Source: an uncultured Acidobacteriota bacterium (GTDB taxonomy: Bacteria > Acidobacteriota > Thermoanaerobaculia > Gp7-AA8). From it: a stretch of DNA of 50,402 nt. The notes beneath the pieces are model-generated. The model ran no database searches. It had not been told where the DNA came from and saw nothing but the letters and a program-made list of their open reading frames with translations. This document shows, one piece after another, positions 8,315 through 45,573 of this stretch. Where the stretch lies: the NCBI GenBank assembly GCA_937870635.1, contig CALMZP010000157.1, positions 1-50,402 on the forward strand, written 5' to 3'. Position 1 is the first letter of the stretch. Every line of letters begins with the position of its first letter. The translations under genes were made by a program, and so were the position numbers.

Positions 8315-8380
8315 ATTTTGGATTTTGGATTTTGGATTTTGGATTGGATTGTCGTCAATCCAAAATCCAAAATCCAAAAT
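8315..8380. repeat. Inverted heptamer array, unit GATTTTG
   Basis: Four to five copies of ATTTTGG run from 8315 to about 8350, a six-base loop GTCGTC follows, then three inverted copies (CCAAAAT) end at 8380. The arms could pair into an imperfect hairpin. It sits immediately upstream of the GGAGG of the membrane-protein gene, inside its probable 5' leader. Confidence 0.9.
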
Positions 8381-11216: not shown

Positions 11217-12077
11217 ATGTTCCCAATCGTGAACGCGACGCTGCTCGCCCCCGGCGTCAAGCAGTTCGAGATCGAAGCACCGCGCATCGCCCGGAAACAG
11301 CAGCCGGGGCAGTTCGTGATCATCCGGATCCACGACGCCGGCGAGCGCATTCCGCTGACGATCAAGTCCTCCGACCCGAAGAAGGGAACCATCACCCTCG
11401 TCGTGCAGGCGATCGGCAAGACCACTTCGCTTCTGAACGAGCTCGGCAGGGGCGACGCGATCCTCGATGTGGCCGGGCCTCTCGGCAAGCCGTCCGAGAT
11501 CGAGAAGTACGGCCGGTGTGTGGTCATCGGCGGCGGCGTCGGAACGGCGATCGCGCTGCCGACGGCTCAGGCCCTCAAAGATGCCGGCAACCACGTCACC
11601 GCGATCCTCGGCGCGCGCACGAAGAATCTCCTCATCCTGGAGAAAGAGGTCCGCGAGGCCTCGCACGAAGTCTTCGTGATGACCGACGACGGAAGTTACG
11701 GCGGCAGGGGTCTCGTCACCGACAAGCTGCGTGAGCTGATCGGTGAGGCCGACTTCGTGCTCGCCATCGGGCCCGTTCCGATGATGCGCGCGGTCGCGGA
11801 AGCCACGCGGCCGCGGGCGATCAAGACGGTTGTCAGCCTCAACTCGATCATGGTCGACGGCACAGGGATGTGCGGAGGGTGCCGCGTGGCCATCGGCAAC
11901 GAGAGCAAGTTCGCCTGTGTCGACGGCCCGGAGTTCGACGCGCATCAGGTCGACTTCGGCGTGCTCATGCAGAGAAACGCGATGTATCGCGATGCCGAGC
12001 AGCAATTACTGGCGCACTTCAAGGAGCACCGCGCCGAAGAAGTCGCGCGCGTCAGGGGAGCCTGCGCCCATGTCTAA
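11217..12077 (+). CDS. Ferredoxin-NADP reductase-like subunit (NfnA/SudB type)
   Basis: A 286-residue FAD/NAD-binding protein of the sulfide dehydrogenase/NfnA family. It has an FAD-binding barrel (QQPGQFVIIRIHDAGERIPLTI), a nucleotide-binding region (CVVIGGGVGTAIALP) and the C-terminal [2Fe-2S] motif GMCGGCRV with a third Cys in FACVDGPEF. With the GltA-like partner it should form a flavin-iron-sulfur enzyme that moves electrons between NAD(P)H and ferredoxin or a similar carrier. AGGAAGG seven bases before the ATG supports the start. It overlaps the next gene by 8 bases, as is usual for this pair. Confidence 0.9.
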   Translation: MFPIVNATLLAPGVKQFEIEAPRIARKQQPGQFVIIRIHDAGERIPLTIKSSDPKKGTITLVVQAIGKTTSLLNELGRGDAILDVAGPLGKPSEIEKYGRCVVIGGGVGTAIALPTAQALKDAGNHVTAILGARTKNLLILEKEVREASHEVFVMTDDGSYGGRGLVTDKLRELIGEADFVLAIGPVPMMRAVAEATRPRAIKTVVSLNSIMVDGTGMCGGCRVAIGNESKFACVDGPEFDAHQVDFGVLMQRNAMYRDAEQQLLAHFKEHRAEEVARVRGACAHV

Positions 12078-13518
12078 CACCATCCCGAACAAGGAACGGA
12101 TGAAGCTTCCCCGGCAGCACATGCCGGAGATCGCCGCCGATGTTCGCGCGCGCAATTTCGAGGAAGTGAATCTCGGCTTCGAAGCCAATGCGGCCATCAT
12201 CGAATCGCTCCGCTGCCTGGCGTGCAAGACGCCGACGTGCACGCGCTCCTGTCCCGTGGGCGTGGACGTCAAAGAGTTCCTGGCCCGCATCATCGATAAG
12301 GACTACCTCGGCGCCGCGGCCGTGATCCGCAGAGACAATGCACTCCCGGCCATCACCGGGCGCGTCTGCCCCCAGGAAGATCAGTGCGAAGGCGACTGCC
12401 TCGTCGCCAAGCGCAACGAATCGGTCGCGATCGGACATCTCGAACGCTTCGTGGCCGACTACGAGCGCAAGACTGGTCAGATCGGGATTCCGGAGAACGC
12501 TCCGTCCACGGCGAAGAAAGTGGCGATCGTCGGCAGCGGCCCGGCCGGCCTGAGCGCGGCGGGAGATCTCGTGCAGCAGGGCCACAAGGTCCGTGTCTTC
12601 GAAGCGCTGCACGAGCTGGGCGGTGTGCTGGTCTACGGCATCCCCGAGTTTCGCCTTCCGAAGGACATCGTGCGTCAGGAAGTCGATGTGCTCCGCAAGA
12701 GGGGAGTGGAATTCGAGACGAACGTCATCGTCGGCAAGACGGTCACCGTCGATGAGCTCCTCGGAGAAGAAGGATACGACGCGGTCTTCGTCGCCACGGG
12801 GGCCGGCCTGCCGCAATTTCTCGGCGTCCCGGGCGAGAACCTGAATGGTGTCTATTCTGCGAACGAGTTCCTGACGCGCGTCAACCTCATGCGCGCGTAC
12901 CGGTTCCCCGATTACGACGAGCCGGTCTACGACTGCCGCGGCAAAGACGTGGTCGTCGTCGGCGGCGGGAACACCGCGATGGACGCCGTGCGCACGGCGC
13001 GGCGCCTCGGTGCCCGCAACGCGTACCTCGTCTACCGGCGCGGCGAAGAGGAGATGCCGGCACGCAAGGAAGAGGTCAAGCATGCGAAGGAAGAAGGGAT
13101 CGAGTTCCGCATGCTGACGAATCCCGTCGAGCTGATCGGCGACGAGCGCGGATGGCTCACCGGGGTCCGCTGCGTGCGGATGGAGCTCGGCGAGCCGGGA
13201 GCAGACGGCCGGCGCAAACCCGTCCCGGTTGCAGGATCGGAGTTCGTGATCGATGCGTCGCTCGTGATCGTGGCCGTCGGTACGTCGGCCAATCCGCTCG
13301 TGCAGTCGACCACACCCGATCTGAAGACGACGAAGAAGAACTACATCGAAGCCGATCCTGAGACGCTGCGAACGTCGAAGAAAGGCGTGTTCGCCGGCGG
13401 CGACATCGTGACCGGCGGCGCAACGGTCATCCTGGCCATGGGCGCCGGACGGAAGGCGGCAAAGGGAATCGGGGAGTATTTGAGCTCGGGCGCGTGGCCG
13501 TTAACGGTTAACGGTTAA
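12070..13518 (+). CDS. gltA: NADPH-dependent glutamate synthase small-subunit-like (GltA/NfnB)
   Basis: A 482-residue protein with an N-terminal twin-cluster region (RCLACKTPTCTRSCPVGVDV, then GRVCPQEDQCEGDC), followed by FAD motif AIVGSGPAGLSAA, NADPH motif VVVVGGGNTAMDAVRTA and a final FAD motif GVFAGGDIVTGGATV. The eight cysteines fit two [4Fe-4S] clusters. Paired with the upstream NfnA-like gene it is more likely NfnB, an electron-bifurcating transhydrogenase subunit, than a true glutamate synthase; databases use both names. The final residues PLTVNG and the stop codon are encoded by a GTTAACG heptamer array that starts inside the gene. Confidence 0.9.
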   Translation: MSNTIPNKERMKLPRQHMPEIAADVRARNFEEVNLGFEANAAIIESLRCLACKTPTCTRSCPVGVDVKEFLARIIDKDYLGAAAVIRRDNALPAITGRVCPQEDQCEGDCLVAKRNESVAIGHLERFVADYERKTGQIGIPENAPSTAKKVAIVGSGPAGLSAAGDLVQQGHKVRVFEALHELGGVLVYGIPEFRLPKDIVRQEVDVLRKRGVEFETNVIVGKTVTVDELLGEEGYDAVFVATGAGLPQFLGVPGENLNGVYSANEFLTRVNLMRAYRFPDYDEPVYDCRGKDVVVVGGGNTAMDAVRTARRLGARNAYLVYRRGEEEMPARKEEVKHAKEEGIEFRMLTNPVELIGDERGWLTGVRCVRMELGEPGADGRRKPVPVAGSEFVIDASLVIVAVGTSANPLVQSTTPDLKTTKKNYIEADPETLRTSKKGVFAGGDIVTGGATVILAMGAGRKAAKGIGEYLSSGAWPLTVNG

Positions 13519-13527
13519 CGGTTAACG
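13500..13527. repeat. Heptamer array, four copies of GTTAACG
   Basis: Four exact tandem copies span 13500-13527. The third copy supplies the TAA stop of the GltA-like gene (13516-13518). The same unit recurs at 20681-20722 and, inverted, at 20509-20547. Confidence 0.95.
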
Positions 13528-13543
13528 GGCGTATTCTGACTCC

Positions 13544-20048: not shown

Positions 20049-20516
20049 ATGGGAAAAACGCACGAATACAAGGCTCATCTCACCTGGATTGGAAACAGGG
20101 GCAACGGGACCGCCACCTATCCCGGCTACGGCCGCGAATACCGCGTGGCGATCAGGGGAAAGGCCGACCTGGTCGGGTCGGCGAACCCGATGTTCCGGGG
20201 CGACCCCTTGAAGCACGATCCGGAAGACCTCTTCCTGACCGCGATCTCGTCGTGTCACATGCTGTCGTACCTCGCACTCTGTGCGCGGCGGGGGATCACC
20301 GTGACCGCGTATGAAGACAATGCGAGCGGAACGCTGGCACTCGACGGCGACGGCGGCCGTTTCACGGAAGTGACACTGCGGCCGCAGGTGACGATCGCCG
20401 GCGGCGACGCCGCGCTCGCCGAACAGCTCCACCACATCGCGCACGAGCAGTGCTTCATCGCGAACTCGTGCAGCGTGCCGATCCGGTATGAGGCGACGGT
20501 CGTACGGAACCGTTAA
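20049..20516 (+). CDS. OsmC/Ohr-family peroxide-detoxifying protein
   Basis: A 155-residue OsmC-family protein. MGKTHEYKAHLTWIGNRG starts the fold, HDPEDLFLTAISSCHMLSYL carries the first conserved Cys, and EQCFIANSCSV the second pair. Such proteins reduce organic hydroperoxides with redox-active cysteines; the sequence is closest to the general OsmC/YhfA-like branch. The ATG at 20049 is favoured over an earlier in-frame ATG at 20010 because homology starts there. The stop codon TAA (20514-20516) lies inside an ACCGTTA heptamer array that begins within the last codons. Confidence 0.88.
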   Translation: MGKTHEYKAHLTWIGNRGNGTATYPGYGREYRVAIRGKADLVGSANPMFRGDPLKHDPEDLFLTAISSCHMLSYLALCARRGITVTAYEDNASGTLALDGDGGRFTEVTLRPQVTIAGGDAALAEQLHHIAHEQCFIANSCSVPIRYEATVVRNR

Positions 20517-20743
20517 CCGTTAACCGTTAACCGTTAACCGTTAACCGAAGTACGCGTCACGAGACACGTCACCCTGAGCCGCGAAGACGGCGAAGGGTCT
20601 CAAGATGCGCGATCTTCGCATTTTGAGATCCTTCGACGTCTGCGCGCCTCAGGATGACGTGGGCAGGCTACGCTCTCGCGGTTAACGGTTAACGGTTAAC
20701 GGTTAACGGTTAACGGTTAACGGTCAACGGTCAACGGTCAACG
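20509..20743. repeat. Composite: inverted heptamer arrays around a REP-A palindrome
   Basis: About 5.5 copies of ACCGTTA (20509-20547) are followed by a 97-bp palindrome (20565-20661) and then the inverse unit GTTAACG six times (20681-20722) and a variant, GTCAACG, three times (20723-20743). The whole forms a nested inverted structure of about 235 bp. The left arm reads into the OsmC-family stop and the right arm adjoins the collapsed PEBP gene. Confidence 0.92.
20565..20661. repeat. Dispersed palindrome REP-A, copy 1
   Basis: A 97-bp imperfect palindrome bounded by CACGTCACCCTGAG and CTCAGGATGACGTG, with inner inverted segments GAAGGGTCTC and GAGATCCTTC. Very similar elements lie at 23183-23281 and 38914-39010, and a diverged one at 31133-31237. 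Confidence 0.88.
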
Positions 20744-20763
20744 TTTCCGGTCGTACCGTCCCA

Positions 20764-26076: not shown

Positions 26077-27241
26077 CATGGTGTCAGGTCTGGAAAAACA
26101 ACTTTTCTTCCAATAGTGACGTGTGAGGGGGGCCCTTTTCGGCGGGCGCCGGCCGAGGTATCCTCGTCATTCCACGCCGGCCTGTCTGGGACGCCTTCCT
26201 CGCCGTCCGTTCGCTATTGCTCACCCAACCTTATGAGCAGGCCATTGCGTTTCATTGATCCCAACACCCTTCAACATGTAACCAGCCGCGGCAACCGAAA
26301 ACAGGACATCGTCCGTGATGACCGCGACTGTCTCAATTTCGTCGAGCTTCTGGCCCAGGCAGTCCTCGACCGCCAGTGGATTCTGCATGCCTGGGTTCTG
26401 ATGACCAACCACGTGCACCTTCTGGTGACGGCGCCATTGGGAAACCTCTCGGACGGCATGCGCGATCTTCTGGGCGACTACGCGTCGTCCTTTAACAAGA
26501 GGCACGCGCTCGTCGGTCATCTCTTTCAGCATCGCTATGACGCGAAGCCTGTTGAGCGCGAGCGTCATCAACTCGAGCTGACGCGCTATCTGCCGCTCAA
26601 TCCTGTCCGCTGCGGACTTGTACGGACCCCCGCGGAGTGGCCATGGAGTTCGTATCGTGCAACGGCTGGGTTGGAGCCCGTTCCGTCCTGGCTGACCGTT
26701 TCCGGGACATTGGCGACATTTCACCCTACGGATCGAGAAATCGCGCAACGAGAGTTCCGTCAGTTCGTGAGTCTCGCGCGCGGTGTCGAATATGACCCAT
26801 GGTCGGAACTGGTGAACGGGTGGATTCTCGGGTCTTCGGCTTTCTGCGAGAAGGTACAGAAATGGATCGACGCTAAACCGCGCAGCAACGAGCATCCGGT
26901 CCGGCAGCGACACCTCATCACGCCCGGCCTCGCCAGGCTCATCGAAGTGGTCAAGACTGAGTTGGGAGTCAGCGATCTTACCTTCAAAGGCCGCCCGCAA
27001 CGCGTCGCGCGCAGACTCGTCGCTGATCTGGGTCACGAAGAGTGCGGCGCTAAGTTCCCGGCGATCGGAGCGGCGCTTGGAGTGACCGCTTTTGGCGCAG
27101 CAAAACTTCGCTCGCGGAGCCAGGCCCTGTTGCCGGACGACCCTGAGTACCGCGCACTGCTGGAAAAAGTTCGGATTGCGCTGAGAGCGGGCAAGGGTGA
27201 AATTTTGGAAGAAATGTCCAATGTCCAGACCTGACACCATG
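26077..27241. mobile_element. RAYT-type transposon with 18-bp inverted ends
   Basis: CATGGTGTCAGGTCTGGA at 26077-26094 is repeated as an exact inverted copy at 27224-27241, enclosing a single Y1 transposase gene. The transposase stop lies inside the right end. The element sits tightly between pntA1 and the phosphatidylserine decarboxylase gene. A solo end differing at one base in 20 occurs at 41458-41477. Confidence 0.8.
26233..27234 (+). CDS. REP-associated tyrosine transposase (Y1/HUH, IS200-like)
   Basis: A 333-residue transposase. MSRPLRFIDPNTLQHVTSRGNRK opens the Y1 domain; the HUH metal-binding motif is NHVHLLV at about residue 62, and the likely catalytic Tyr is in GHLFQHRYDAKPVE. LTRYLPLNPVRCGLV and WPWSSYRA follow, both RAYT hallmarks. 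The C-terminal 80 residues carry a helix-turn-helix-like segment (LVADLGHEECGAKFPAIGAALGVT) seen in longer RAYTs. It nicks single-stranded DNA at hairpins using the Tyr. No frameshift is visible. ATG 26233 is chosen because the family starts there. Confidence 0.88.
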   Translation: MSRPLRFIDPNTLQHVTSRGNRKQDIVRDDRDCLNFVELLAQAVLDRQWILHAWVLMTNHVHLLVTAPLGNLSDGMRDLLGDYASSFNKRHALVGHLFQHRYDAKPVERERHQLELTRYLPLNPVRCGLVRTPAEWPWSSYRATAGLEPVPSWLTVSGTLATFHPTDREIAQREFRQFVSLARGVEYDPWSELVNGWILGSSAFCEKVQKWIDAKPRSNEHPVRQRHLITPGLARLIEVVKTELGVSDLTFKGRPQRVARRLVADLGHEECGAKFPAIGAALGVTAFGAAKLRSRSQALLPDDPEYRALLEKVRIALRAGKGEILEEMSNVQT

Positions 27242-31132: not shown

Positions 31133-31237
31133 GTGTCATCCCGAGCGTAGCGAGGGACCTGAGTGTGAAGGGGGCGCGAGGATCGAGCCTCGTGCCGCCC
31201 GGCCCCCCCAGGTCCCTCGCTCACGCTCAGGATGACA
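31133..31237. repeat. Dispersed palindrome, REP-A variant
   Basis: Ends GTGTCATCCCGAGCGTAGC and CTCACGCTCAGGATGACA are inverted, and inner GAGGGACCTG pairs with CAGGTCCCTC. It fills the gap between the ligase and DUF1028 genes and is a diverged member of the REP-A group. Confidence 0.75.
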
Positions 31238-32030: not shown

Positions 32031-32140
32031 CCTTGGACCTTGGACCTTGGGATTGCCACCCAACGGACCACCCAGTGCGGCTACCTCTCCCAAGGTCCAA
32101 GGTCCAAGGTCCAAGGTCCAGGGTCCAGGGTCCAGGGTCC
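32031..32140. repeat. Inverted heptamer arrays, unit CCTTGGA
   Basis: Three copies of CCTTGGA (32031-32051, the last ending in GGG) face four inverted copies of CCAAGGT (32090-32117) and three copies of the variant CCAGGGT (32118-32138). The array ends four bases before the stop of the convergent ATP-grasp gene. Like the array at 20681-20743, one arm is a block of pure units followed by exactly three one-base variants. Confidence 0.92.
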
Positions 32141-34215: not shown

Positions 34216-34460
34216 GAGTGCGGCAGCTTGCTGCCGGGGGCGGGGGGCTGGGGGCGGGGAAGGAAGAAGGAAGGAGGCAGAAGGCAGAAGGCAGAAGGCA
34301 GAAGGATGACGGATGAATTGGGGATACGGGAATGGTGAATGGTCAATGTTGAATGGTGAATGGTGAATTCACAGCACAAACCATTCACCATTCACCATTC
34401 ACCATTCCCGCACTTCATCCTTCATCCTTGATCCTTGATCCCCAAGCTGCCGCACTCGTT
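34216..34460. repeat. Composite repeat: REP-C ends with nested heptamer arrays
   Basis: Order: REP-C palindrome (34216-34236), four GGCAGAA-type heptamers (about 34276-34305), GAATGGT heptamers (about 34330-34366), a short AT-rich centre, inverted ACCATTC heptamers (about 34379-34409), CCTTCAT/CCTTGAT heptamers (about 34415-34440) and an inverted REP-C (34442-34460). The whole is a nested inverted structure of about 245 bp. Its right end joins the truncated SRPBCC gene. Confidence 0.88.
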
Positions 34461-45229: not shown

Positions 45230-45251
45230 GCGGCGGATCGTATCAAGTTGG

Positions 45252-45540
45252 GAGTGCGGCAGCTTGCTGCCGCGTGGACTTTGAAGGCAGAAGGCAGAAG
45301 GCAGAAGGATGAAGGATGAAGGATGAAGGATGAAGGATGAAGGATGAAGGGTGAAGGATGAAGGATGAAGGGTGAAGGATGAAGGATGAAGGATGAAGGA
45401 TGAAGGATGAACGACGCGGAGACGCCGAAGGATGACGTGATCGCGATCGTCGCGAGCGCCGTCGATCTGCAGCGTAGCTCGGGATGACACGATTTTGCCT
45501 TCACCCTTCATCCTTCATCCTTCACCCTTCATCCTTCATC
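45252..45540. repeat. Composite repeat: REP-C, 18 heptamers, inverted heptamers
   Basis: REP-C palindrome at 45252-45272 is followed by three AAGGCAG units (45284-45304), fifteen AAGGATG/AAGGGTG units (45305-45409), an 88-bp spacer with REP-A-like pieces (GAAGGATGACGTGA, CTCGGGATGACA), and about six inverted CCTTCAT/CCTTCAC units (45498-45539). The order REP-C then AAGGCAG then AAGGATG is the same as at 34216-34310. The region upstream of the serine hydrolase has no gene. Confidence 0.93.
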
Positions 45541-45573
45541 CTTCCTTCATCGTTCATCGATCGTTGATTGCAG

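Follow-up and report, generated by a model that had tools for sequence, protein, structure and literature searches.

Mirrored seven-base repeat arrays as probable arms of hairpin elements associated with S23p/IVP (PF05635) genes

Why should the short tandem repeats of a bacterial genome share a unit of seven bases, and why should they stand in mirrored pairs? The question arises at positions 20508 to 20743 of a 50,402-nt contig stretch of an uncultured Acidobacteriota genome (the whole stretch analysed, hereafter the window), where an ACCGTTA array, a palindrome of ~97 bp and inverse GTTAACG and GTCAACG arrays follow one another just as the earlier note on this DNA described. Specifically, the left arm (20508..20547, + strand) consists of 5.7 copies of AACCGTT and contains the TAA codon that ends the ORF upstream (20049-20516); the REP-like palindrome, CACGTCAYCCTGAG...CTCAGGRTGACGTG, occupies 20565..20661; and the right arm (20679..20724, - strand) holds 6.6 copies of the inverse of AACCGTT, extended by 3.6 copies of the variant unit GTCAACG (20719..20743, - strand). 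The predicted fold of 20505-20745 has an energy of -151 kcal/mol (z -13.8).

The rest of the window is similar in this respect: every exact array of at least three copies has period 7 (14 occurs only as a multiple of 7), so the claim that all microsatellites of the window are heptameric stands. A tight hairpin is formed by GGATTTT x4.4 (8315..8345, +) and AAAATCC x3.4 (8357..8380, -), and another pair of arms by TTGGACC x2.9 (32031..32050, +) and CCAAGGT x4.4, followed by CCAGGGT (32090..32140, -). A nested hairpin has an imperfect GAATGGT x5.6 (34330..34368, +) and ACCATTC x4.0 (34380..34407, -) as its inner arms, with GGCAGAA x4.4 (34275..34305, +) and CTTCATC x4.1 (34413..34441, -) as its outer layer, and a long left arm of 18.6 units, GGCAGAA then GGATGAA (45282..45411, +), faces CCTTCAT and its variants (45498..45558, -). 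Most arrays are thus paired with their inverse, as had been claimed, but a lone GTTAACG x4.1 array (13500..13528, +), which contains the stop of ORF 12070-13518, has no inverse copy, and 34275-34305 is paired only as the outer nested layer. Three minor observations concern these sites: the stop codons of the predicted genes 20049-20516 and 12070-13518 are each supplied by a GTTAACG array; GAGTGCGGCAGCTTG ends are mirrored outside the nested hairpin (34216-34230 and 34443-34457); and the motif GGAGTGCGGCAGCTTGCTGCCG is found again near 45250 (45246-45273), perhaps as a second REP.

The source genome (4.52 Mb in 171 contigs, 98.7% complete) is tentatively placed near Thermoanaerobaculia (Acidobacteriota) by the closest named homologues of one window protein. 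A census of exact arrays of at least three copies in a 723-kb sample of it gave period 7 for 123 of 135 arrays and some other period between 2 and 20 for the remaining 12, that is, the excess at seven that the earlier note predicted rather than a spread over 2-12. An order-2 Markov simulation of a 413-kb part led to an expectation of 0 period-7 arrays vs. 62 observed, and exact (GTTAACG)x3 occurs 197 times per strand genome-wide (0 for the reversed control). Same-unit neighbours no more than 300 bp apart were inverted in 54 cases and direct in one, again in line with the prediction. The units group into ~30 families, most of which hold one arm order (e.g., GGATTTT comes first in 30 of 30), and the copy number of arms has its mode at 4-5 units, and about half of the GGATTTT arms have five units (15 of 32 on the left, 19 of 32 on the right). 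Neither the random orientation nor the copy number falling from the minimum that characterize simple repeats made by slippage was found, given the 54:1 orientation ratio and this mode. Hairpin loops range from 1 to ~190 bp; those of GGATTTT hairpins are mutually unrelated except for heptamer pieces, and homologous loops were accordingly rejected as the mark of one transposed copy. In terms of location, 87 of 105 array blocks lie in gaps between genes, 13 at stretch edges and five within predicted genes (gene calls came from a simple home-made model, which makes their ends approximate). Of the blocks in gaps, 53 fall in tandem, 17 in convergent and 17 in divergent ones, vs. 194, 63 and 74 such gaps overall; many arrays lie 0-16 bp from stop codons, and arrays also abut start codons. 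Relatives in other genera show period 7 almost exclusively, with different units. The idea of a common cause that fixes seven and mirrors the arms has strong support both genome-wide and in relatives, but the agents proposed for it, a polymerase or a transposase, do not.

As far as the transposase is concerned, a Y1 enzyme could move the REP, with the heptamers being its flanks. The source genome has three Y1_Tnp (PF01797) genes, including a RAYT-like one in the window (26233-27234, +); the REP palindrome is centred between heptamer arms in ~10 copies; and, as in REP/BIME systems with RAYT, palindromes occur in intergenic regions near stop codons. However, the ~20 REP copies in the 723-kb sample are flanked by GGTTAAC, GGTGCTT, AACGATG or GTGACGA arms or by none, several of them lack heptamers altogether, most heptamer hairpins hold no REP, and, unlike in REP/BIME systems, the arms consist of tandem 7-bp units around loops unrelated to one another, and there is no Y1 link. 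A palindromic repeat unit together with a Y1 gene in the genome describes the REP core and not the heptamer arms; the REP is a dispersed repeat in its own right, found inside some of these arms. Since REPs occur with differing arms or none, REP/RAYT was rejected as the driver, and we consider this reading very improbable; the suggestion of a transposase acting on hairpin DNA is likewise not supported, with only three Y1 genes and with hairpins and REPs mostly uncoupled. A second class of palindrome of ~100 bp, GTCATCCCGAGC...GCTCGGGATGAC, mostly without heptamer arms, was also observed at 31135-31236 of the window and in six further stretches.

A PF05635 (S23p/IVP) fragment within the loop of one REP-less hairpin led to a search for this family. 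The full-length IVP gene of the source genome (C153:4680-4997) has inverted GGTTAAC arrays on its two sides, with the unit seen at 20508-20743, and an IVP fragment on contig C24 is flanked by GGGTAGT arrays. We searched 61 genomes for PF05635 and read 67 loci in relatives, chosen by rank and list order regardless of their flanks, with one criterion of enclosure for all (mirrored heptamers within ~220 bp); two loci were scored on the opposite strand, which affects the test little as the arms are mirrored. Mirrored heptamers enclose 46 of the 67 loci (a first pass gave 24 strict plus 17 relaxed) vs. 0 of 113 control genes, the latter being source-genome genes of 80-200 codons (Fisher p 7e-27). 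On named plasmids, 20 of 22 PF05635 loci are enclosed vs. 0 of 26 control genes from two Nostoc plasmids; taken together, the similarly sized controls of both sets give 0/139. The plasmid loci are mostly from Cyanobacteriota (Nostoc, Calothrix, Anabaena), which fits the link to cyanobacterial STRR heptamers drawn by the earlier note, and also from Azospirillum, Treponema, Bernardetia and Chlorohelix; a Gemmatirosa plasmid locus has degenerate arms only. The PF05635 genes split unrelated gene pairs, such as two ribonucleotide reductase genes or cas10/cmr3. As a separate observation, five of the 22 plasmid genes are housed in cas operons (between cas10 and cmr3 once, cas6 and cas4 twice, and cas2 and cas1 twice).

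Consistent with a link between gene and array, genomes with PF05635 had 49 arrays in 680 kb vs. 0 in 220 kb for genomes without it, a contrast confounded by descent, as the latter belong to the same class but to other families. Further, unit distance tracks the IVP protein tree (Mantel rho 0.20, 0/5000 permutations); for instance, neighbouring proteins of one clade are found with AGTGCTG, AGTACTG and AGTCCTG, and those of another clade with GAACGCA, GAAGGCA and GAACGAT. The dispersed units also resemble the arms of IVP genes of their own genus: 58% (mean of nine genera) differ by at most one base from an IVP arm of the same genus vs. ~8% for other genera (0/20,000 permutations), where several genera are represented by one or two arrays each, and the rows are biased for G007 and G014 (stretches chosen for containing GTTAACG) and for G013 and G017 (some stretches chosen for their match to a hairpin-bearing region). 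Dispersed units and IVP arms are alike, for example, in genera g5 (GGNNGTC) and g13 (GGGATCA), and the arms of the G003 and G009 IVP loci match many sites in their congeners G012 and G016. Several results count against such a link: in the source genome only 22% of arrays differ by at most one base from the arms of its own IVP genes, and none of the three IVP genes found there matches GGATTTT, its commonest unit; recognisable arms are missing from 21 of the 67 IVP loci; and G034 yields 25 PF05635 matches, yet 0 arrays in the 60 kb sampled. We also observed an armless PF05635 clade in several genera of the family (five loci), which may represent a host gene that originated in such an element.

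Individual sites differ among congeners as well. At the pgk-cyaB point, G017 has TGATG (a stop/start overlap), G004 a GGATGAA hairpin and G013 a GGCAGAA hairpin; similarly, the G009 IVP locus measures ~580 bp where G016 has ~40 bp that include a short remnant of the CAGACC type (this junction was read by eye, automatic alignment being poor there). That is, the presence or absence of a hairpin or IVP gene at one spot differs between congeners, by gain or loss either way, and no target-site duplication was seen at these two sites, both read by eye. A third comparison, G008 vs. G015, was discarded as an IVP insertion because G015 has a different gene there and no clean empty site.

Arms and IVP genes are therefore associated, co-inherited and matched in trans, with IVP genes enclosed by arms in several phyla and a related unit particular to each IVP clade. 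We thus favor the hypothesis, which we consider likely, that the heptamer arrays make up the stem, i.e., both arms, of hairpin elements belonging with S23p/IVP genes. The gene-bearing form would consist of a left heptamer arm, an IVP gene of ~120 codons and a mirrored right arm, and in such copies the PF05635 ORF does lie within the flanking hairpin stem; the copies in the window are gene-less, the far commoner form, which would comprise arms only, with either a short loop or a different repeat (for instance, the REP at 20565-20661) between them. Deletion from an IVP element was rejected as the origin of gene-less composites, as their interiors do not match. Such elements may be selfish and spread by means of S23p, which would be their own factor and act in trans, and RNase III would cut the transcribed stem, making insertion between operon genes tolerable, as for the 23S rRNA IVSs. 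The fold of PF05635 is a four-helix bundle, and TRAP, a protein that reads triplets, does so one unit per subunit. The solved family member from X. campestris is a homopentamer (PMC4990558; PDB 2GSC), and five subunits together with about five units per arm suggest, more weakly, that a pentameric S23p ring could read one heptamer per subunit in a TRAP-like manner; ring reading would then set both the 7-nt unit length and the arm length of about five units, and slippage plus template switching between arms would keep units and arms alike. The more sweeping idea, an unrecognised, widespread class of selfish hairpins with ring-read arms, of which the heptamer excess, STRRs and rRNA IVSs would all be products, is a tentative one that we hold to be rather doubtful.

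Alternatively, the arrays might be driven by plain slippage with a 7-nt polymerase footprint plus template switching within the hairpin, the IVP genes being bystanders. A 7-nt footprint has been proposed earlier for the bacterial heptamer excess, as quoted in PMC4692102 and PMC4679880, and the layers of nested hairpins (34275-34441, 45282-45558, pgk-cyaB) do show mirrored variant units. Yet slippage alone, which the earlier note had discounted on unit length and mirrored arms, is insufficient: it yields neither the preponderance of inverted pairs, nor a mode at 4-5 units, nor the tie to one gene family, and the PF05635-less genomes of the same class show no arrays in the 220 kb sampled; we regard this alternative as unlikely. 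Comparably unlikely, in our view, is that heptamers are host regulatory sites or terminators bound by IVP as a host regulator, with nothing mobile involved. The arrays adjoin stop codons, and the heptamer elements of Geobacter have been interpreted as sites to which an unknown global regulator binds (PMC2700814). A terminator role, however, is poorly suited because gap types are used in proportion to their number, and terminators were dismissed with convergent gaps not being preferred; the variable presence among congeners and the position of the IVP gene itself inside arms that split unrelated gene pairs also speak against host sites. Finally, spread by reverse transcription, with S23p as the Avd-like partner of the enzyme, as in DGRs or retrons, draws on the homology of PF05635 to the DGR protein Avd (PMC10053308), but no PF00078 match was found in the source genome, nearly complete as it is, or in most IVP-bearing relatives. 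A reverse transcriptase seems dispensable here and was rejected as the agent on this PF00078 result, leaving the polymerase suggestion unsupported, and we consider DGR- or retron-like spread extremely improbable.

The hairpin elements favored here resemble several known systems. In the 23S rRNA IVSs of Coxiella and Leptospira, a small hairpin element has an S23p ORF in its loop, and the Coxiella IVS has tandem GACAGAT heptamers beside the ORF, with copy number varying among strains (PMC4990558). Unlike IVSs, the elements described here lie outside rRNA genes, both of their arms are heptamer arrays, and gene-less copies far outnumber gene-bearing ones; because the window arrays lie between protein genes and not in a 23S rRNA gene, they represent an IVS-like variant rather than a member of the IVSs. 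Cyanobacterial STRRs and the GGGAATC (Xanthomonas) and GGGGA(C/T)T (Nostoc) repeats are likewise intergenic heptamer arrays, with 70-75 close inverted pairs in Xanthomonas, but the Xanthomonas and Nostoc repeats were described as G-quadruplex or simple repeats in a paper that does not mention PF05635 (PMC4692102); X. campestris has a PF05635 homologue, XCC0516 (PDB 2GSC). MITEs are also short, gene-less and numerous with inverted-repeat ends, whereas the ends here are tandem arrays whose unit varies from copy to copy, with no DDE transposase or target duplication seen. The heptamer excess, the Xanthomonas inverted pairs, the Beggiatoaceae and Geobacter heptamers and the rRNA IVSs were thus already known; what is new is that PF05635 genes are tied to mirrored heptamer arms outside rRNA genes, a link that we did not find in the open-licence literature searched.

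To our knowledge, many bacterial genomes have heptamers as the most frequent of their longer simple repeats and the cause has not been established, nor do we know of a function for the S23p/IVP protein despite its structures (2GSC, 2RLD). The two become one testable question, i.e., whether S23p binds and spreads heptamer hairpins. PF05635 genes near CRISPR or defence genes may also be inserted elements and could mislead searches for CRISPR-linked genes. On a more practical note, the arrays probably break assembly, because many contigs end in or beside heptamer arrays (seen in seven of the stretches read).
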